From positions 1 through 64,000 of the forward strand of contig JAEPRB010000102.1 of the NCBI GenBank assembly GCA_016758965.1: a DNA stretch of 64,000 nt. Direction: 5' to 3'. Made by a program: the position numbers and the translations under genes. Every line of letters begins with the position of its first letter. Positions within the stretch are counted from its first letter, which is position 1. The DNA is from Circinella minor (lineage: Eukaryota; Mucoromycota; Mucoromycetes; Mucorales; Lichtheimiaceae). Below the pieces are notes generated by a model. That model worked only from the letters and a program-made list of their open reading frames with translations, did not search any database and was not told the origin of the DNA. Positions 37,780-50,812 of this stretch are shown one piece after another.

Positions 37780-39162
37780 TTATGGTATTGTTTCATAGGT
37801 AAATCCAGGACGCTGTTCTTCTACTAAATCAGAGTGGCAAGATGAAACGCCTAGCTGCTTTTTCACTTTCGTAGAGAATAGTATGGCCTGCATAACAATT
37901 AAAGAATCAATCGTTAATTGTACTGCACCGCAAATATAGAATTGAACGGGTGAACGGGTGAATATGAAGTAAAATAATTTGAAACTGTCACCAAGAAACT
38001 ATAGAACAATTGATTTACAAGTTATTAACTAATATGTTCTTCAAATTCCATATAATAAATTTCATATAGAAAAATAGAAGCCTTAATAATTCTCATCCCC
38101 TCGTAACGTTCATCATTGTTGTTTGTTTGTTTATTTATTGTTCAGCCCAAAACTTTACATCTTACACACTACTCCCTTTGTAATAGCCCGCTAAAAAATA
38201 AATATATAAATAAAATTATATTTACCCAAGTAGCCATAACGATTGCACTAAAACCGGTAGTAGATCGTCGCTTGAAGTTTGAAACACATTGGGGGAGAGG
38301 TAATGTACTTTCAATGCCTAGACTAAGAACGCCCAGCGTTTCAATGAACCAAGCATGGTATCCAAACAATTGATAGGCAACAGCAATGGTGGTTGTAAAT
38401 CCCAATAAAAAATTAACGTAGTCAAGGTAATGGTCCCATGCCCAAATTTTCTTAAGCATGGCTTTAATACCGCTCTGATTTTTTTTACTCATGATCTCGT
38501 GATTATACTGGTGATATTGTTGTTCGTCATCCAGTAACGGTTGTTGCTGCTGTTCATATTTGACAATAGGTTTGTATCGGATAACGATTTCCAGCAAGAC
38601 CAGCTGTGCGGTAATCATCACCAAAGATTGAATAAGTAAAGTAATATCAAATCGTTTACCAAGCCTAGATAATATATACTATACGTTAGTAATTATTATA
38701 TGAGATGTAAAGTTAAAAATAGTTTACTATCTATACAAATTTAAATACTCTGAATTAAGATGTATACCAAAAAAAGACCCTCAAGACGCTATTTAAATCA
38801 TAATAATAATGGAAACAATGCATTGTTGATTATTAGTAAACAATATATCTCCTTATTACTACAGTTATTTATACAGCATTTAAAAAAATTTTACTTTGAG
38901 AATAATAGGATAGCACAGGTAACTGGATTAAATCCATCACTTGATTCTTGCTTACGGATAATTAAATACTAGTTTTCATATGTAGAGGGTTTGGTTATTG
39001 GTTTAGTTAAATCTGGTTGGACTTGTACATAATTGGTTTTTGCATATTTATATTTATAATATATTTATATTTGGCTGAAATATTACATACTTGATCCACA
39101 TAGCCAATGACTGGTCCAATGGCCATAGCAATCGATAATGCAACCGATGCCAAATCAGACAT
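37780..39162 (-). CDS. PQ-loop repeat membrane protein (SLC66A2/ANY1-like)
   Basis: Exons 39162-39091, 38968-38895, 38788-38768, 38664-38226 and 37998-37780 join to 274 codons. First PQ-loop-type repeat: IAMAIGPVIGYVDQYLIIRK followed by SSDGFNPVTCAIL. The 21-nt exon supplies VLRVFFW. Second repeat: FIETLGVLSLGIESTLPLPQ with FKRRSTTGFS, then GDSFKLFYFIFTRSPVQFYI. About seven membrane spans. Relatives (PQLC1/SLC66A2 in animals, ANY1 in yeast) act at Golgi/endosome membranes and affect phospholipid asymmetry or transport. A similar role is inferred. A cytosolic Gln-rich loop (YEQQQQPLLDDEQQ) lies between the repeats. Confidence 0.85.
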
Positions 39163-39830
39163 TTCTAAATGAATGAATAAAAAAAAGGGAAGGTGTGGAG
39201 AGAAGAAAGAGAGAGAGACACTCAAAAGAAAAAAAAAAGAGGATAAACGAGAGTAATAAAAATACGGAGTGGAAGTGTTTGAAAAGAGTGTATGAGAGAA
39301 GTGGGAGTGGTGTGTATTAGGGGAAAAAGATGGATTTGTTGATAATTGAAGGAAAGGAACGTCTAACAAAAAAAAAGGAGCGAAACAGGCGTTAAGGCAT
39401 CCTAGCTGACTACAAAAAACTCTTTTTTCATGCCAGAATTCGTTCGTGGGGAGTATAACTATATCTGTAGGTCAGCAAAAATTATATTTTGAAGTGCGGA
39501 ATCAAGTTTTTTCTTCACAATTGAAATATGCATATACTTATTACACTCCACGAAGTATTTCAACTTCAACACATTTGTCAAACAAAGTGCTTTGATTCCT
39601 TGATTACCTAACAAAATAGCTCATAGAAAAAAAATACTATTACGTAGATCCTTTTATACATTATAATCATATTCCATTTCCCCTCTTTTATACTATCTTT
39701 CCTTTTTTTTTTTTTGTTTTCGTTCTCATAGTCGTAGAATCATATTTTTGTGCTTGTCTTATTGACACAAACTTCAGACCACGTCAATCTTTTTAAATTC
39801 TATTTTGAAGTTTGTTGATCGCCTTGTGTT
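39163..39830. other. spacer between the PQ-loop gene and the PIN-Fanzor locus
   Basis: Purine-rich near the PQ-loop start codon (39180-39300, GAGAGA/AAAAAG strings on the plus strand, hence pyrimidine-rich promoter-type sequence on the gene's strand). Otherwise AT-rich. No terminal inverted repeat for the neighbouring Fanzor locus could be found here. Confidence 0.45.
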
Positions 39831-42800
39831 TTATTGGGAATTAATACGACGAGACTTGCGGATCACTGCTTGGGGTCTTTGTCCATGTTCAAGGATGGAA
39901 GAAGTGGCTATAGATGCTTGCACACTTCCTGCACTTCTATCACGATGAAATTTCTTGTGGCAATTTTCGCAAACAAGGATACGAATAACTTTTTCTTTGC
40001 CTTGATTATCCAAATTATCTTTATAGAATTGTCGACTAGGAGCAGGGGACCGGCGTAAATACTCCACATACATTATTTCACCTTCCATAAAACAATGACA
40101 GCATAGTTTACTACTACAGTATTCGTCAATACGTGACAAGTCGATTTGAACAGGCTCTTGCCGTGCCTTGGCGTGGTCATAAAGTTTATCGGCAAATTGT
40201 TGAGCAAGTCCTGACTTGGCGCCCTTTCGATTACCTGTATCCATTCTATCCAACCCCATACCAATCAAGAATTTGTTCTTTCTTGTAGACAGTTCTGAAA
40301 GGGCACCTTCTTCAATTGCACGTTGACGAGACGCGTCTGCCATATTAATGATCCGTTCACATGCCTTATCGATTTCTGAGCGCATTGACATTTTTGTATC
40401 CTAGGAATGATGAAGTTCTGCTTTGCTTGAGTGCGCATCATGCAATCTAAAGCCCCGATCTTCGGCTTACCAGGTACGGATAAAAGTCAAAAATTTAACC
40501 ACATTGGATGTTTTGCTGCCACCACTTTTTGCTAAATCACGTTGAATGTTGTGGACTGAAGTCTGTTCGTTTCGATTTTCTAACCACTTCCTATTGATAG
40601 GTTCACGACCATAAAGTTCATCTCGTCTAATAGTATGTTGTACACCAGGCTGATGTTCTGTATCGGTAGGAAGATAAAAGGCACCGGCAGTCCATGTTTC
40701 ACCCAGATTAATTCCAAAAACACCTTCGTATTCGTCGAGAAGATTTGAATCATGTTGCCCAAGCTCTTCACATTTTCTGAATGCAAATTTACGGATTTCA
40801 GGAAGATATTTGAATTGACGGTGCTGTAGTTTTCGACGTGGGTGGGCCCAATCAGTCATGACAGCTTGTAAACAGACACCATTTGTTCGAAGCATGCGTA
40901 TTGTGTATCGTGAAATTTGGTGGTCATTTTCAAACATCTTACGTAAGTCAGTGGCATGTTTGGATCGTTTGATAGTGACAAGATTTGGCAAGTCAATTAC
41001 AGCACTTTTTCCCAAATCAACAATAAATGATGATGCTTCTTCAGTACTATGCACAGATCGGGCGACATCTTGCTTGAGTGTTTCGAGAGCATTATTTTCA
41101 AGAGCATCAAATAGTAATGTTTGTTCTATAATTAACATAAAAAAGAGATTGATTGAAAAAAAAAAGTTAGATAGAGTACTATTAATCACATATATATCTC
41201 ACTTTTTGAAACTTACGTTTTTTTGTGCTGTTAATTGTCAAAATATCTTGATGTGTTTCTGCTCGCTGAAGTTTATGATGTATATAATCCTTGGTATATT
41301 TGACAAAGTCGCCCATATGAGTAAGGATATTTCTGGTATATGAGCCATATAATGGAATAAATACGTTCTTGCTTGGTGCCGTTGGACAAATGGAAAAGGA
41401 AATCTTTTATGGATAATCTTCAAGAATGCGAGCCAATACAGATGTTAAAATATAAGCATGCTCAGTGGATCCAGCTTCGTCCTGACTATCATTACCATCT
41501 TGGCCTTGATTCGACGCTTCATCAGAATTAGCATCACGTTGTCGTCGTGAACCAGTCGTTGGTTGATTAACCCGTTTCATACCAAAACAATCAAATAAGT
41601 CAACTGGCGCTTGGTTAGAATTTATATCAACCTGAGATGCTCGCGCTCCAATGGGTCTTCCAACAAATCGCTGCCACTTATTTTTTTCTTGTTTGATAAA
41701 TGCATCGACATCTGTTTGAACTTTTCTTGTTGCTTTTCGAAGAGCAGCGCTAGCCTCTTTACATTTTTCAACATTTATCATGGATGAATGTCGAGCATCG
41801 ACTTCAAGAGGAATTTCCCAAATTTGTGCTGTTAAATATTCGGAAAAACCTTTTTCAGTTGTCCAACCACGAGGCACTGTTGCTTTGCGTTCCAACTGCT
41901 GATCAACTAATACCATGGTTGCCTTCTTGCCCGTTCGACGAATATGTGTCCATGTTGATTTGATCCAGTTTTGAACACTGTTGTTGATAACGTCACCTTT
42001 GTCTTTCAGATTCTTCTCGACTTGATGATCAGTAGGATCCAATGCTTCTTTTTGCCATCGACGGAGAACATAACGTCGAAATTTGTCATCGCTTGGCCAA
42101 TCAAGTGCAACTTGTGCTTGCTCCTTGAGTCTGACGGAAATATATTTGGAAAAGTTATCAACAAAGTGTGAAACGATTGTTTGTCGAAAGTGACTATCGA
42201 TGTCTTCTGCAATATCATCCAAAACTTCTATACGAAGCTTTGATGATGGTAACCATGGGATATTCTGGTCATTATATCCTGCAAACCATAATTGTCGTAC
42301 ATATAAATAAATAATGCTTCGGAGCTCTGTATTTTCACGCATAATATATGATAGAGCTTTTATTGTTTTTTTCGTCACCAGGATAAGCAACCAATGCCAG
42401 AGGATTAGTTGGAAGATTTTGAATGTTGTACTGGCCAATTGTTGCTCTATCAAATTGAACTGTGCTGTTATCCTTGTCATAACGGTGGGGTCGGTAATCG
42501 GTTGCACAATAAATAATCCATTTCCAAGTTTTGACCGAAGATGTTGAGAAAAATGACCTATAAACTTTTGTTTTTGAAGATTCATTAAGTTCTAAAGCAT
42601 ATATGACAATCATAGTACCTATCAGCATTGCGATTTGCCGTGCAAGGCTAAGCTGAAAAACTTCATGATAAATAACGCATGTCAACAAATTTCCCTGGTG
42701 AAGAGCAGCTAGATCAACTATTTGGGCTTTAGGATTCTTTACTTCTGACACTGCTATTGTAAAAGCTTTATGTGCATCTGCTATAGTTGACGAGGATGAA

Positions 42801-45090
42801 GATGTCTGTCCAACCAATTGATTTTGTTGAGAGGGACGGTCAAATGGTACATAACGTTGACATGCTTTGCTAATACTGATGAATTTAATCCACATGTCCA
42901 TGTTTTCATCGCTCGAGATATTTGTACAACCTTTGTTTCTTCAGTAGCTCCTGGTTTACGGTAATAAATCGTCTTGGCATGTCCAGTATATAACGCAGCT
43001 GTGTTTCTGGCTGTTAATAATCTTTCTTCTTCATCATCATCATCATCATCATTATTATTATTATTATTATTATTATCTTGAGTATTGATAGCCTTTCCTT
43101 TACCCTTTTGTTTTGTCTTTTGTCTTTTGGCAGAGGGGCTTGTTTGTCGTTGTTGTCTTTTACTCAAGTCACCTTTATATTCAGGTAAAGTTGCATCCAT
43201 TGGAATTCTTTGAACATCACGAATAAATAAATATCGACCTGTTTTTTTCCCATTACTTGATATATTCGTAAGTGCAGATTCATGGGGACTGCCGGAAGTA
43301 ATAGCGGAAGAACAATACGGCTGCGCTTCAGGACCTTGATCCGAGCTGCTAGCCACACTACTACTCGATTCAACAGCAGTACTACCAAATCGGAGCCGGC
43401 AACCTCCTGACAAAGTCAGAGGGGAATCAACACAGACCGAGCTCGAACGCCCTTCAAAAGAACGGAGCTGCCAATGAGCAGATTCAGATGCATTAGGTGA
43501 TTCTTTTTGTTTTTGTTTTCCTTTTCCTTTTTGTTTTTGTTTTTCTTTCTCTTTTTGCGCTTCTTTTCGTCTTTGTATTTTTGGATGATGATGGTGATGT
43601 TGTAATTGTAATTGTTGTTGCTCTTGTTGATGTTGTTCTGTATCTCTTTGTTTAAAATAAAAAGTAGTTCGAAGTTTATCAAATACAGTAAGAAAATACT
43701 CTTTTAATTGGAAAGTTGTAGACGATGATGATGGTGCTTGGTCATTATTTTGTTGAGGAGGACCAGTAGTAAAAATGCAATAAGTATATAAAGAGCACAT
43801 TGCATATCAAATTTCATCTTGTCGCTAACACGGTTATAAATTGATAACAAAGAGGCGAGCATTTCATCTGGATGGGTTCCAAGTCCGTCTTTTCCTTCTG
43901 ATTCCATCAAATTAAGCATTTGGATTCGTAACTTCGCGAAAGAAATACCATAAATATTTTTAGCATAGTCGTTACCTGATGCTGATGCAAGAATAATGAG
44001 GCGCTTTTCAGCCATATCAAAAGTACCATCGTCTTGGTGCTTGAGATGAAGCTTCTGAAGAATGTCACGTTTGGTACATAATTTGGTTGTTGATATGATA
44101 GAGCCAAGACTAGGAGTACCCCATTAATTTCCATAATTCGCATGACATCCAAACATCCTTTGTAAACTAATAAGTCACTATCGGAAGAGATAATAGCTGT
44201 TTAATTTTGTGGCGATGGCAACATCGAAGCCAACTTAATAATCATGTCCTCTGATTCATAAGATGCTTGGTAATAATAGACAGCGGGAAGAAAATCTGCT
44301 AGTGGATCAAATGTTTGATAAATTTTCTTGAGAATCTAAAAAAAAGGGTCATAAAATATGGGTCCATTAATAAAAATGTATATACTTTTTTTAATTTATT
44401 TATTTTTCTTTCTTTTGTATATCTTGCACTTATGTTATTTTGTTTTTCTATTAGGTACGATAATAATATAAAATTAGACCTACTTCAATAATAGCAGTCT
44501 TTATATCCGATGTAAAACGTACAGCACTTTTTGCTGCTGCTATGAAATCTTTGTTTTTGATACCACGTGACTTGTGTAGTTCCTTTGCCTCCTTGAATTT
44601 ACTTGTTGCGTATTGGTCGTGCTTATCATGTGTTTCAGATTTTATCGGCAAGCTTTCCCCATCAAGAACCAATACAATAGAACGTGGCATGGGATGACAG
44701 GTAACGGGGTTAAAATAGAGATTGAGGCAGCAGCTAATGATATCCGCGACGATTCCAGCAGTGACTTTTTGTTTATTATCATTTATAACATCCTGGGTAG
44801 CTGTGGAGCCAGAATATAAAAAGATAAAAAAATAAATTCACGCATACGAAAATTAATACGTACTTATTTAAGATACGTACACAAATAAAATGTGTTATAA
44901 TCTTATTACCATTTTCAAATTGAGGCTTTAAAAGATCTACAGCCCGCTTACTTAAAACCCAAAAAAATGATTGACATAAATCAATAAATACGTGGTTTAC
45001 ATTATTTGAATCCAAATGTTGCTTTGAATTATCATTAGAATGAAACACATTTTTTGATTTAAGTGTATTATGAATGTTCTTGACACCCAT
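39831..45090 (-). pseudogene. large gene joining a FEN/XRN-like PIN nuclease to a Fanzor-like RuvC nuclease; decayed
   Basis: Exons 45090-44910, 44800-44484, 44335-41217 and 41125-39831. N-terminus: MGVKNIHNTL, HVFIDLCQSFFW, VLVLDGESLPIKSE, ASYESEDMIIKLA, ISSDSDLLVY and ASGNDYAKNIYG. These are in the order and with the acidic residues of 5'-nuclease (FEN/XPG/XRN) PIN domains. Then comes a low-complexity linker (Gln/His, Lys/Gln, Asn/Asp runs) and a long helical region (WLPSSKLRIEVLDDIAEDI; DDKFRRYVLRRWQKEA). The RuvC part follows: VFGINLGETWTAGAFYLP (RuvC-I, Asn for Asp at 40707-40709), LSRIDEYCSSKLCCHC (RuvC-II Glu and zinc Cys), LVCENCHKKFHRDRSAG (zinc Cys and RuvC-III Asp). Stops at 44201 (TAA), 41407 (TAA), 40467 (TAA) and 40401 (TAG), and frame changes near 44118, 43785, 42905 and 42370 (two of them, near 44118 and 42370, at G or A runs), show decay. 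In each case the neighbouring frames join into continuous protein. Two adjacent fused pseudogenes is the alternative reading. Confidence 0.65.
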
Positions 45091-46546
45091 ATATTAATAT
45101 ATATTTATAATTAAAAAAAAACATATATAAATGAATAAAAGTGAATAGAAAATAATAATAAAAATATAAGATTTGTAAATGTAAGTTAGTATACTATATG
45201 AGTATTATATATGTAGTTAATAAAAACGAGGAGTGAGATGTGTGTGTGTTTGAGTGTTTGAGTGTTTGAGAGAAATAGAGTGTTAATGACAATGTCATTG
45301 AAAAAAAAAATCTACGTAAAGAAGATAGAGAAAAAGAAATTCTTATCTACGGATATACAATTATCTTTTTTTTTATGACAGGGAAGGGCACTTTTCCGTT
45401 TAACCATCATTATGTCCGTGCACCTTATATAACAATGAACCAATCCGGAACGCATAAAATTGCATAAATAAAAAAAAAGGGGGTTGTTTATTTTTTCTAT
45501 TAAATGAAAGAAATGATGATTACTTTATTCATTATATTCCACCATTATTATTATCATTATTACGATTATAATGATGGATTTCATTTGAATGGGAAAAGCT
45601 TGATCTTTCTTTTGGTATAGTTTTTATTCTATTCTTTGTTTGATAATTTAATGCTTATTCAGTTTTAAAATAAAGATGAATATTTTTTGACAGAAAATTA
45701 TTTGACATGACGTTATATAAAGATGCTGCTATTATTTCTATAAACATAAACACAAATAATGATAGATAAACACGCCATCGATGGTGAAATCAATTCTTTT
45801 TTTTTATTGGTTATAAATTATTTTTGTTCCTTATAGCATCAAGTAGTAAATAAGAGAGCACATTCTTTATATTGATGAACGCATGATTTCCGATTGTTAC
45901 ACAGAACATTACTTGAGCATAATAAATATTGAGCAGATATGAAAGACCATGGCATCTTTTTTTTTTTTTTCTGCTTCCTGCTCCTTGATTGAGGATGCAT
46001 AATAACAATATTTGGGGAAAAAGTGAAACATTTTTTTTTTGTTGAGTAAGGAACATTGACATCATTACATTAGTTTTCGTATTTTGATAGGAACAAAGAT
46101 AGGTTTTTCTTTTTTTTTAAAAAAAACATGGTGCACGCATAATCATAGGTATGATACATTGATCAATATCGATTAAAAAATTACAAAAAGAGTGCCATAA
46201 GAAAGTTATTCTTTCTTGTGATTACGTATAAAAATAAGACATTATGATAGTTATAATGAAAAAAAAAATAAGTATGGTATATTGGCTAGAAAGGATCATC
46301 AATCGTAATATTGTTGTTCTGCATATTGATACTCATGAATTAGTGGAAGAAAATAGGGACAGTATTTGCTTGTCATTGTGAAGATAATACAATACTATAC
46401 ATGGAAAAATAAACAATTGATAAGCACCCATGACCATAAAAAACTCTTTATTGACAATGCATTGTTCAATCTTACTGCTTTGCTAGATATATAAAAAGAT
46501 TCGTATTTTCTTTTTTTTTTTTGCCTTTCCACCAATTTTTTTTTTC
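45091..46546. other. AT-rich intergenic region upstream of the PIN-Fanzor locus
   Basis: Includes GT-rich repeats near 45240-45270 (GTGTGTGTGTTTGAGTG), several A or T runs and CTTATATAACAATG near 45424. No coding frame is convincing. Confidence 0.45.
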
Positions 46547-46793
46547 ATGACCCGGCGTACAGAAAGAAATCGAAACACTCCTGCCATGATTAACATGCAA
46601 AACAGTAGCATAATCATGGCAGGTAGTGGAAGTGATTTATAAGATCACTTATGTCGTGGTATTTTTGACCAACCAAGCAACAACAACAATAATTACGGTA
46701 GCGGTGGTCGTGGTCGTGGTGGCGGCCGAGGTATTTTCCGAGGTGATTTCCGTGGTGGTCGTGGTCGTAGCGGTCGTGGTTCTTTCACCACTG

Positions 46794-46845
<52 letters not shown>

Positions 46846-46954
46846 CGAGAATAATAATAATATTAATATTAATGATATTGATATTGATATTGACGTACTG
46901 GACATGGAGCTTGATCGCTACATGTCCAGTATTATTAGAGAAAAGAAAGATTAA
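46547..46954 (+). pseudogene. RGG-rich protein with an ALYREF/FOP-like C-terminus, early stop
   Basis: ATG at 46547 opens MTRRTERNRNTPAM, but TAA at 46640-46642 stops it after 31 codons. The same frame then continues to TAA at 46952-46954 with GSGGRGRGGGRGIF, FRGGRGRSGRGSF, a long (AAC)n-encoded Asn run and an acidic end VLDMELDRYMSS. LDxELDxYM is the UAP56-binding motif that closes Aly/REF and FOP/CHTOP mRNA-export factors, which recruit the TREX helicase. No RNA-recognition motif is present. It is either a truncated relic or a gene whose true first exon I cannot find upstream. No splice pair rescues the stop. Confidence 0.5.
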
Positions 46955-47423
46955 TTTCCTTTTTTAATATTTTTTTCTCTTTTATAATATTTTTTTTTCT
47001 TTTGTAATAATTTTTCTTTTGTAAATATTTTGTTTTTTTAATATTCATTATTAAATAAGTCAAATACCAAAAGTAGTTTTTGTTTACCTGGTGCTTCTTA
47101 CCTTATGTAAATTATAATTTCATAATGTCACAGAGGTACCGAAGTTTTTTTTTTTTTTTTTTTTATATATATATAAATAATCGGTTGAGGTTAAAAATTT
47201 TATTATGGAAGATACGTGTATGAAAATGGAACAAAGGGATGTAACATCAAAAAAGAAAACAATACTTAAAAGTCGAATATAAGGTTAAAAGATTTACTAG
47301 CTACGTAAAGAAAGAATCAGAAAATAAACAAATGGATAGTTTTTCTTTTGTTATTTTTTTGGAAATATGTATTGAAGAATATCTATCTATCTATCTATAT
47401 ATAATAATAGTAACTCAAAGCAA
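46955..47423. other. AT-rich spacer
   Basis: Contains a run of about 20 T followed by (TA)n at 47144-47172, and a TATC tetranucleotide repeat at about 47383-47397. No gene. Confidence 0.5.
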
Positions 47424-47825
47424 TTAATCATCAGGTGGATGTTGTAAAGAATGAATTACTTTTAAAGCAGAGCGAAATACTTGTTCTGGAACAAAAGGAT
47501 GATTGTTGAATACCAGATTCCAGTAGGATCGCCATAATGCAAGTATAGTGCCTTGAATTACATTAGTGTATTTGGTGAAGAATGTGGGGGTATCAGGTCC
47601 CAGCGAAGATCCATAATAACCCGAAGAAGGTTATTCCCTTCAGGCTCACAATAAAGATGGTACCCATGTGCAAGTCCAAATTGACCAGCGAACTGGACAG
47701 GTGACAAGAACAGAGCTACCATAGTACTTGTCTGCAAATTATAACTAACAACTTCAGCCAATGGTAATAGCCCATTAACTTTCACATCCGCACTTTATCA
47801 ACTGGTTGTGATTGCTCCAAAAACC
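47424..47825 (-). pseudogene. unrecognised coding fragment, possibly the end of a LINE-type RT ORF
   Basis: On the minus strand, protein-like sequence runs through three frames: EQSQPVDKVRM, then VNGLLPLAEVVSYNLQ to CEPEGNNLL, then TPTFFTKYTNVIQGTILALW to HSLQHPPDD and TAA at 47424. Two frameshifts connect them. WRSYWNLVFNNHPFVPEQV resembles the region after the RT in some fungal non-LTR elements, but the match is weak. No ATG. Confidence 0.3.
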
Positions 47826-47966
47826 CTGAGGCATTAACTAAAGGCCGTGAATTTGTGGGGAGTGTAACATAGCGGAGTTCTGAAGGGTTTTTTTAACACC
47901 TCTCCAAGGTCTCGGTTTTTTTTGGAAGCCTTGTACTTTCTTCCTCTCAACCATAAAAAAAAAGCC

Positions 47967-49820
47967 ATGTATTTTGTTAAAACAGTTGCAGGAGCGCTCA
48001 TACTATCATCTGCTTTGACAAGTGCATATATACAAACAGAACAGCAACATCCATTACAAAAATCTTCTCGAGCTGTTCCAGATCTACATGGAAAATTTTT
48101 ACATATCACTGATATTCACGTACGTGATATTTTCTTTTTTTTTTGTTGTCACATCATGTAGCTTTGTTACGTATAATGAAAATGCACGTCAAAACTGGTG
48201 GTATTGGAAACAAACATATTTTTTTGAAGTTTGTAGTTCTAATTTGTAAAATGATATGTATATATATATATATCAACTGATTAATTTTATAGGTTGATCC
48301 ATATTATGAAAATGAAGCAACGATAAAATCTGGATGTCATAGACAAGCTAAAAAACATCATAAAAAAAAGAAACGAAAAGGAAAGTTGGCAGGCTATTGG
48401 GGCAGTCCAACAAAAGGATGTGATTCTCCGCTACGTTTAGCAGAACATACCATCGATTGGATAGGCGATAGTTGGAAAGAGGAGATCGATTTTATAGTTT
48501 GGACAGGCGACAATGCAAGGTTTGTGAAAAGCAGCACTTTCTCGCATTTTCTCTGTAATGTTTATTTTTATACAGTGATCCCCAAACATTAACAAAAAAA
48601 AAACATTGACGGACATAATGTATTTCATTTTTATAACATCAATCAACTCCGATACGAAAAAACAGACATGGCCTAGATAACGATTTACCTCGTACAAGTA
48701 AAGAAATTTTGGCACTTAACCAAGCCATGACATATAGAGTACAAGATGCCTTTTATTTAAACGATAACAAAACAATTCCTATCATTCCATGTATAGGTAA
48801 TAAAAAACCCTACAGCATTATGATTATCTTCTTAATACCACACTATTAACCCCTTGTGGCTAAACACCTGTGCCCACACCGTTATTAGGAAACAATGATG
48901 TACATCCCCACAATCGCCTGCAAACAGTCAATATGTTGGAAACATACGGTGAAATGTGGCGAGATTTTATTCCTCCAGATCAAATGCCTATTTTTCGACA
49001 AGGTGGTTATTATGCTGTCGATGTCGCACCGGGATTACGTGTTTTGGCTCTTAATACACTATACTTTTTTGATTCGAATGATGCAGTGAACGGATGTCGA
49101 GATAAAAACGGGCCAGGACATGAACACTTTGAATGGATGGAAAATCAATTGAATAGTGCCCGTAGAGATCGTGCACGCGTATACATGATAGGCCATGTTC
49201 CTCCAACAGATCGTACATTTTTCGAAAGTTGTCTTAATCGCTACACTGACTTGGCAATTGAATATCAAGAAGTAATTGCCGGGCATCTTTATGGTCATGT
49301 CAACATGGATCATTTCACTGTTTTACAAAAAAATCAAGATTCTACACAGGATATCGATGATGTAGATGATGATGATAGTTACGAAGGAAACGATGACGTA
49401 GTGAATATTGCCAAAAAAGGGAAGAAATATGCGCATAAGCTTCGTAAACAATATAAAAAGATTCAAGGAAATGACCCAGCTGTGGTAATCCACGTAGCTC
49501 CCTCGATCATACCTGAATATAATCCTTCATTCCGTATCAATGAATACAATACGGATCCAGCATCCTCAAAATTTGGCACTTGGACAAAATACACCCAATA
49601 TTATGCGGATTTGAATCACTATAATGATAAAAAACGACCTGAACTCGAACCTCCGGAGTTTTATATCGAATATGCCACAGACGTTGATTATGGAATGACA
49701 GATTTGACGACAGATAGCTGGATTGATCTTGCCCAGCGCATGACACAAAAAGGATCTAAAAAATCGAAAAAACTATGGAAAAAATTTGTAGATAACATGT
49801 TTGTGCAAACAAGACATTAA
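47967..49820 (+). CDS. endopolyphosphatase, PPN1-like
   Basis: Exons 47967-48119, 48293-48519, 48666-48796 and 48889-49820 give 480 residues. An N-terminal hydrophobic segment (VAGALILSSALTSAY) acts as signal anchor. The calcineurin-type metallophosphatase motifs are complete: HITDIHVDPYY, WTGDNARHGLDND, CIGNNDVHPHN, IGHVPPTD and GHLYGHVNMDH. A CDSPLRLAEHTIDWI block is typical of Ppn1. The enzyme cuts inorganic polyphosphate chains internally, in the vacuole after delivery through the secretory path. A basic C-terminus (KKSKKLWKKF) follows. It is shorter than the yeast enzyme (about 670 residues), having short loops. No breaks. Confidence 0.9.
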
Positions 49821-50812
49821 ATTAATAAAAAAAAAATATTGTTTCATGATGGACGTATGAAAAAGAAAAATTTATTATATATAGGAAGGGGCACCTAGTT
49901 GATTACACACATATTAACCCTGTGAGCCCACATTGTGAGTGTCAAATTCAATACTAGCGTACGTACCTAAGGTACTTATTTGATATTATGTTTGTTTGCA
50001 TACAAAATCTCGAGTATCTTTCTTCTTATGAATGTTCATGAAATTATTGATAAAGATCGTTATTCTTTATAAAAATTTAATCGCCATGGATATTATTGTA
50101 TGTACATAGTTTAAAATATTACTTCGGTGAAGTATTTATACATGATTTGTTCTGAAATTCATAACAGTCCCTGTTCCATCATACATAGTGTATCACGTAT
50201 GAATAGGCAGAAAAATAGGAATGAATTTTATTATTTCTCAAACTTCAATAGAAAGATACCTATAGCCGTATCAAATTAATGAGTAACTGATCATCATTTA
50301 TATTAGTTACATAGAATGAACATTCCTCATATATTACAAGAATAGCTTCTTTTATTCTTACGCATATAAGTTGAAATGAATTTATTCAGTTTTTTTATAC
50401 CAACCTAACAATAAATAAGAGGCACATAAATAAAACAAATTTCACTATGTCACTATTACTTAGCATAAAAGTCTTACGCAGATCGCAATTCTCTTTTAGC
50501 TGTAATATATTCAAACATCGGTTGATTGTTATAGACTGTACATTGTGGATTTGCTATGTAAGCATTTTAGACTTTACCAAAGCGTTGCCATGTACGTACA
50601 AAATATACATTATAGTTTGCTGGAAAATTCGAGAATCAAGCATCTGTATAATTTGTATACTGTGTATCCATGCCTGAAATTTCGCACTCTACTTTAACAA
50701 TAAATTATCATTTTCAAATTAATAGCCCTTTTATATATAACATGTCGCCACCGAAGTACAAATCATCGATACACATTTATTATTATTTACTACATAATAA
50801 AGTGAAATAAAT
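49821..50812. other. AT-rich intergenic region between convergent genes
   Basis: It lies between the ends of the polyphosphatase and transcription-factor genes, so it should hold both terminators. No inverted repeat, gene or repeat family was recognised. Confidence 0.5.

Follow-up and report, generated by a model that had tools for sequence, protein, structure and literature searches.

The Locus and Its Copies

The window analyzed here is a stretch of 64,000 nucleotides from the mucoralean fungus Circinella minor (positions 1 to 64,000 of the forward strand of contig JAEPRB010000102.1, hereafter C102; assembly GCA_016758965.1), whose genome comprises 46.6 Mb in 619 contigs. On its minus strand, the window carries a mobile element and, inside it, a decayed four-exon gene reading from 45090 to 39831. 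Judging from its sequence features, the intact copy of this gene, located on contig C22, most probably encodes in one frame a protein that opens with a FEN/XPG/EXO1-type nuclease domain (roughly residues 1-370), continues through a low-complexity linker and a middle region, and finishes in a Fanzor-like RuvC domain equipped with a Cys4 ribbon; the gene is carried by a multi-copy mobile element.

In the window, exon 1 (44910..45090) and exon 2 (44484..44800), both placed by alignment to C22, provide the start MGVKN with the first PIN aspartate (FIDLC, Asp at 44982) and the second PIN aspartate motif (LDGESLP, 44663), respectively. Exon 3 (41217..44335) holds the remainder of the PIN domain (YESEDMI at 44257, SDSDLL at 44182, SGNDY at 43970), followed by the low-complexity linker and the middle region; it is a single open frame in C22 and is broken in the window copy. 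Exon 4 (39831..41125), whose assignment relies on a PF07282 match, on similarity to a Fanzor-type gene of contig C441, and on the alignment to C22, contains the putative RuvC domain and Cys4 ribbon. Its key residues are an asparagine standing for the RuvC aspartate (40709-40707), a glutamate (40124), the cysteines at 40103, 40094, 39971, and 39962, and the last aspartate (39941). The initial annotation had described a four-exon minus-strand locus with these motifs and a Cys4 element: the exons and outer limits agree with the C22 alignment, all the named motifs lie on the minus strand, and the Cys4 element is present at 40103-39960.

The window copy is a pseudogene. Compared with C22, it is interrupted by four in-frame stops and shifted by four indels whose lengths are not divisible by three, and its first RuvC aspartate is replaced by asparagine. 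The annotation had considered the copy decayed and had predicted that an intact relative exists or existed elsewhere. C22 is such a relative: three GT-AG introns yield a protein of 1659 amino acids, with zero internal stops in 1659 codons, and both domains share one open frame. Its third exon (3.19 kb) stays open over 1063 codons: the coding frame contains 0 stops, the two alternative frames 32 and 101. The longest open reading frame (ORF) obtained from 500 base shuffles of this exon, read in three frames, reaches 201 amino acids, and the window gene is therefore not a product of chance. As this one exon connects the PIN domain with the Fanzor-like half, the fusion is not a false join of two neighbours either. 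In the third copy, on contig C2, the PIN part is followed by the RuvC part, colinear with the others, and the middle is lost.

The N-Terminal Nuclease Domain

By its sequence, the identification of the N-terminus as a FEN/EXO1-type nuclease domain is good. The C22 protein has acidic residues at D37, D107, E193, D195, D218, D220, and D289, in the order typical of FEN/XPG nucleases. The conserved acidic residues expected in the two halves of a FEN/XPG/EXO1 active site are, thus, present, and all seven positions are invariant between C22 and its relative on contig C46; metal binding by individual residues among them is assigned by analogy. Like the FEN/XPG/EXO1 5' nucleases, the protein starts with MG and presents the ordered motifs DGESLP, YESD, DSDLL, and GNDY. 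Unlike them, it scores below the Pfam cut-offs and forms one protein with a RuvC nuclease encoded by a mobile element.

The C46 relative (L034; minus strand, about 5260-3546) is a stand-alone FEN/XPG-like PIN gene, coding for P0005, which is annotated as a hypothetical protein. It was retrieved with an E-value of 1.4e-7 in the whole-genome search; among the matches listed, no other diverged relative of this PIN domain appears. P0005 scores 24.4 against XPG_I and, unlike the fusion, has no RuvC match on its contig: genome searches with the RuvC parts returned nothing on C46. Pairwise comparison of the C22 PIN domain with P0005 gives a score of 200, vs. 36.8 ± 5.4 for shuffled sequences (none of 1000 as good), with 26% identity in the alignment used and the same motif order.

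When a profile built from C22 and the C46 relative is compared with the PDB, five distinct Exonuclease 1 sequences are retrieved, with E-values between 6.6e-5 and 1.1e-3. For the top match, the value of 6.6e-5 concerns the whole sequence, the best single stretch having an E-value of 0.0016. The match to Exonuclease 1 covers profile positions 104 to 328. With the same two-sequence profile, a FEN1 appears far more weakly (E 0.37). The annotation's "FEN/XRN-like" label can, therefore, be kept in part: the domain is of the FEN/EXO1 type, with EXO1 as its nearest solved structure, and the likeness to XRN is not borne out by the matches.

These matches also bear on the possibility that the fused PIN domain acts on RNA, processing the element's transcript into mature guide RNA and having no role in DNA repair. 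In favor of this role, the class of PIN-fold nucleases has RNases among its members; the nearest solved relatives, Exonuclease 1 and the much weaker FEN1, are both DNA enzymes, which speaks against it. According to the accessible part of PMC10432273, Fanzor guide RNAs originate from the 3' end of the element. Such guides need defined ends, and a processing nuclease would fit this need. Fanzors with known guide RNAs are, however, described in the accessible parts of the literature without any PIN-type domain. Overall, a role in guide RNA maturation is rather unlikely, yet it is the most plausible of the four alternatives to the favored reading considered here, which are not mutually exclusive.

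The C-Terminal RuvC Domain and Its Cys4 Ribbon

A canonical Fanzor-type gene, identified from its sequence, is present in the same genome on C441 (L006; minus strand, 3401-843). It has the DPG motif, a glutamate ahead of the ribbon, and a PF07282 (Cas12f1-like TNB) score of 41.4 bits for its last exon (cut-off 26.3), and it showed no PIN match in the genome search with the PIN domain. The last 160 amino acids of the C22 protein align with this Fanzor with a score of 96, vs. 26.6 ± 4.2 for shuffles (none of 1000 as good), and the similarity continues into the C-terminal RP.A stretch of C441. In the reverse direction, a whole-genome search with the C441 ribbon, at E-values up to 1, retrieves only C22 besides C441 itself (E 0.22).

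The C22 residues D1369, E1564, C1571, C1574, C1615, C1618, and D1625 follow the Fanzor order, and the RuvC Asp-Glu-Asp triad is present. The glutamate (EYCSSKLCCHC, 1564) is located six residues ahead of the first CxxC, a position (Ealt) that marks Fanzors according to the part of PMC10711439 that is accessible. The Asp-Glu-Cys4-Asp pattern occurs in none of 20,000 shuffles, a count obtained with loosened spacings chosen after the protein was known. The DPG motif is absent at RuvC1, where DLG is found instead (1369), and the spacings of 194 residues from Asp to Glu and of 40 between the CxxC pairs fall outside the Fanzor search pattern given in the accessible part of PMC10711439 (120-160 and 12-18, respectively). 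Because it lacks the DPG motif and the normal spacings, the domain is best called Fanzor-like, i.e., a divergent relative. The Fanzor/TnpB-type assignment of the initial annotation is, thus, sustained by the glutamate position and the homology to C441, without the DPG motif and usual spacings.

The comparison with Fanzor1 proteins (SpuFz1, GtFz1, PpFz1, and the C441 protein) can be extended to the whole gene. The RuvC domain with its Cys4 ribbon, the glutamate six residues ahead of the first CxxC, and residence in a mobile element of which gene-less copies are also present (compare the SpuFz1 'ghosts') are common features. The fusion differs by its N-terminal FEN/EXO1-type nuclease, its long linker, DLG instead of DPG, its spacings of 194 and 40, and its size of 1659 amino acids, vs. 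400-700 amino acids for Fanzors in the accessible part of Saito et al. Mucorales Fanzors are known to gain extra domains: PpFz1 (Parasitella, Rhizopus) has a Fanzor RuvC Insertion domain, which, in the parts of the literature available, is placed inside RuvC and described as cyclophilin-binding, unlike the N-terminal nuclease of the fusion. This RuvC insertion is the nearest described variant.

Alternatively, the C-terminal half could trace back to an ordinary TnpB (Asp-Leu-Gly type) instead of the Fanzor line, in which case the position of the glutamate would be convergent. DLG is the TnpB-type RuvC1 motif, and Fanzors nearly always have DPG (PMC10711439, accessible part), which favors this origin; against it stand the glutamate six residues ahead of the ribbon and the clear similarity to C441 reaching the RP.A stretch. 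A profile of 13 TnpBs gives the C22 ribbon only 4.0 bits, a rough comparison, as the scoring differs and the 13 sequences themselves came from C441 matches; this low value counts against a TnpB origin and against the Fanzor-like assignment alike. The profile comprises 13 of 14 sequences, from 80 listed of 672 plasmid and 70 phage records matched by the C441 ribbon, and leaves out one record annotated as several pieces. A TnpB origin is, on balance, improbable, and descent from the Fanzor line is preferred.

Selection on the Two Halves

The ratio of nonsynonymous to synonymous substitution rates (dN/dS, omega) between C22 and the window copy is 0.46 in the PIN part (393 codons), 0.75 in the linker (218), 0.50 in the middle region (588), and 0.54 in exon 4 (427). 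These values are pulled up, because the window copy drifted after breaking. Synonymous changes are in excess in the PIN part (27/75, binomial p 0.002) and in the middle region (30/86, p 0.004), barely so in the RuvC part (15/45, p 0.047), and not in the linker (12/47, p 0.26); the binomial test takes no account of transition bias, and non-integer counts entered it in rounded form (30.5 as 30, 55.5 as 56). Indels that are multiples of three make up six of the ten coding ones vs. 9 of the 36 non-coding ones (Fisher p 0.047), the other four coding indels being the window frameshifts. The substitution patterns show both halves under apparent purifying selection, the RuvC half only marginally.

The weak constraint on the linker raises the question of whether two genes of one element, lying in one frame by chance, are translated separately, so that the linker is never made. 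The linker's omega of 0.75 and its lack of synonymous excess agree with this idea, against which the single frame remains open over 3.19 kb and the three linker indels, at C22 positions 3722, 3809, and 3974, measure 54, 27, and 3 bases. Likewise, P0006, a 282-amino acid ORF from another record, runs from the PIN tail through the linker. Separate translation is, therefore, very unlikely, and a single fused protein is preferred.

The Mobile Element

The whole element occupies 39450..47846 on the minus strand. Both of its ends are common to the C22 and C2 copies, homology between the long copies ending at window position 39450 and at about 47846, and these ends recur elsewhere in the genome: the 3' end on at least 11 contigs and the 5' end on at least 11. 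Both ends are found at one locus on C102, C22, C2, C56, C12, and C548, and the 5' end of the C54 copy has diverged. Stretches of the 1.7 kb preceding the gene occur on at least 20 contigs, C102 included. The gene itself was detected by searches with its parts on C102, C22, and C2 only (a lower bound as well), in addition to the distant C46 relative. At 13 other loci, no protein-level trace of it was detected (one 25-amino acid match, E 0.93), and C53 and C308 show short DNA matches near its stop codon. These gene-less copies resemble SpuFz1 ghost elements, SpuFz1 being reported in the accessible part of PMC10432273 to exist also as copies without the gene. The shared ends show that the element family is mobile. 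Duplication of a host segment was considered and rejected: beyond the shared ends, the window and C22 have no match, and the window and C2 have four short ones (32-86 bp).

The conserved 5' terminal region (47736..47846, minus strand) is followed in the window by a 643-bp stretch (47093..47735) that is extra in this copy, window positions 47092 and 47736 being contiguous in C22. The conserved 3' terminal region (39450..39605, minus strand), a candidate guide-RNA region, could be aligned in 10 copies, with 0 predicted pairs. A hairpin formed by GGAGTGTAA and TTACACTCC near the 3' end was rejected as a guide-RNA signature, as it is not kept in every copy (0 consensus pairs), and Rfam gave no match at the gathering score in window positions 38000-49000. 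Near-identical 17-mers TTYGTGGGGAGTRTAAC, in direct orientation, flank the window copy (47845-47875 and 39440-39460). This near-direct repeat was rejected as a target duplication, since it is not visible by eye at C22 or C2.

No transposase and no other large ORF were recognized in the element. As none was recognized, the element probably moves with the help of another element's transposase. One could, instead, consider the PIN domain as a DNA-end or flap module that assists transposition, the protein then making up all or part of the transposition machinery instead of serving retention. The lack of another recognized large ORF favors this, as do two elements that resemble this one at the 5' end and whose protein contains a 3'-5' exonuclease domain. 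The distribution of the upstream part (20 contigs) vs. that of the gene (three contigs) is against it, since movement is, therefore, probably in trans, from another enzyme; furthermore, RuvC enzymes of this kind cut DNA and are not known to join it. A direct role in transposition is accordingly judged unlikely, somewhat more so than one in guide RNA maturation, and a retention function is preferred.

The two elements just mentioned are located on C75 (L069, L088) and C378 (L068). Their first 100 bp or so are 80-85% identical to the start of the PIN-Fanzor element, and they code for a large protein in which DUF6729 is combined with a 3'-5' exonuclease domain, the latter scoring above its cut-off for C75 and below it for C378. 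They differ from the PIN-Fanzor element by this large protein, and they showed no match to its 3' end. DUF6729 has 50 matches in the genome, exon pieces being counted singly, and no paper naming it was found in the literature searched. The DUF6729-exonuclease elements are candidate helpers for moving the family.

Upstream of the gene, the element also contains a small, divergent Gly/Arg-rich ORF on the plus strand (46547..46954), interrupted by a stop in the window and present in a shorter open version in the C56 copy. Its ending, LDMELDRYM..., resembles that of ALY/REF RNA-export proteins, and Pfam gave no match for the ORF. On C22 (L017), a long interspersed nuclear element (LINE)-type retrotransposon, called by eye from ORF1-like and reverse-transcriptase-like ORFs, is nested inside this small ORF (minus strand, 8522-3092). 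Reverse-transcriptase-like ORFs also adjoin the element's 5' ends at C199 and C108. Outside the element, a neighbouring gene on the plus strand of the window (47965-49821) carries DLHGKFLHITDIH and, by eye, is taken to be metallophosphatase-like.

Relatives in Other Genomes

Three RuvC-part proteins from Circinella umbellata, encoded on contigs of differing size, are 66-90% identical to the fusion; all of them are incomplete and restricted to the RuvC side. One further RuvC-part protein comes from a short record. No relatives of the fusion were detected in viral contigs (searched with the RuvC exon, the C441 ribbon, and the second PIN-domain half), in prokaryote genomes (RuvC exon), in phages (C22 RuvC exon), or in plasmids (the larger exon-4 piece of the window). 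The family is, therefore, present in at least two Circinella species, and the full fusion is seen only in Circinella minor.

As for precedents, no clear report of a Fanzor/flap-nuclease or TnpB/PIN fusion was found in the full-text literature searched, most subscription papers lying outside it, in line with the annotation, to which no described family with an N-terminal flap-endonuclease-like domain was known. In the accessible part of PMC11071296, Fanzor and flap endonuclease appear in one sentence; the phrase is ambiguous, as it does not state whether one protein is meant, and it could be a precedent.

Weight of the Evidence

Several observations weigh against reading the gene as a functional PIN-Fanzor fusion on a guided element. 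Only one intact copy was found in the genome, that of C22, and the PIN-region search returned no full-length relative (about 900-2900 amino acids) among 3583 candidates. On the PIN side, the XPG_I score of C22 is 18.3 bits, below the cut-off of 24.9, and the C22 domain by itself has 0 matches in the PDB. The decayed copies depart from the acidic set, the window having Glu for D195 and C2 having Asn for D220, and the AlphaFold model of P0005, computed from a single sequence, is of low confidence (mean predicted local distance difference test score, pLDDT, of 32.3), too low to show a PIN fold with helical arch and H3TH.

On the RuvC side, the expected match to the Cas12f1-like/TnpB profile PF07282 is obtained, at scores under the Pfam cut-off of 26.3: 23.8 bits (E 5.1e-5) for the window ORF and 20.7 bits for C22. 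The RuvC exon matches no NCBIfam model and, alone or as a profile, retrieves neither Fanzor nor TnpB chains from the PDB; its AlphaFold model, based on a five-row alignment, is of low confidence too (mean pLDDT 33.4). There is no similarity between the middle region and C441 (954 and 316 of 1000 shuffles as good) or between exon 4 and the middle part of C441 (822 of 1000), and the region ahead of RuvC, where WED and REC domains would be expected, has no sequence match to C441.

Selection is weaker when measured against C2, with omega reaching 0.67 over 391 codons of the PIN part and 0.86 over 160 codons of the linker, and with 6 of 16 coding vs. 13 of 54 non-coding indels being multiples of three. 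Past the PIN part, C2 misaligns around its large deletion, and the RuvC omega was excluded. Regarding the element, target duplications are not established, the best candidate being a 7-mer at C56 (61 of 2000 random pairs as good) and the six other loci being weaker, and no conserved RNA fold is predicted at the 3' end from the aligned copies.

Proposed Mechanism and Significance

EXO1 chews 5' ends at DNA breaks. The C-terminal half may cut DNA under RNA guidance, using a guide derived from the 3' end of the element, and its targets would be sites lacking the element. The fused 5' nuclease would then act on the cut DNA ends, trimming or resecting their 5' strands, and this resection would favor repair from the element-bearing homologue, so that the element is kept or copied. 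The protein would, thus, constitute a self-contained cut-and-resect homing enzyme that breaks both strands of the empty site under RNA guidance and resects the ends with its own EXO1-like domain, the element being copied in by homologous repair. This proposal is tentative, although it is held to be likelier than any of the alternatives weighed above. In the accessible part of PMC10432273, Fanzors are reported to cut DNA with a guide RNA from the 3' end of their element.

The Fanzor literature, in its accessible parts, describes proteins with a WED/REC/RuvC core that can bear insertions, and one paper notes that what Fanzors do biologically is unknown. Fusion with a FEN/EXO1-type 5' nuclease would point to the fate of the cut ends, which bears on whether such enzymes retain and copy their elements. 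The existence of one intact gene makes this question of retention testable, and would offer a natural design for guided cutting combined with end resection.

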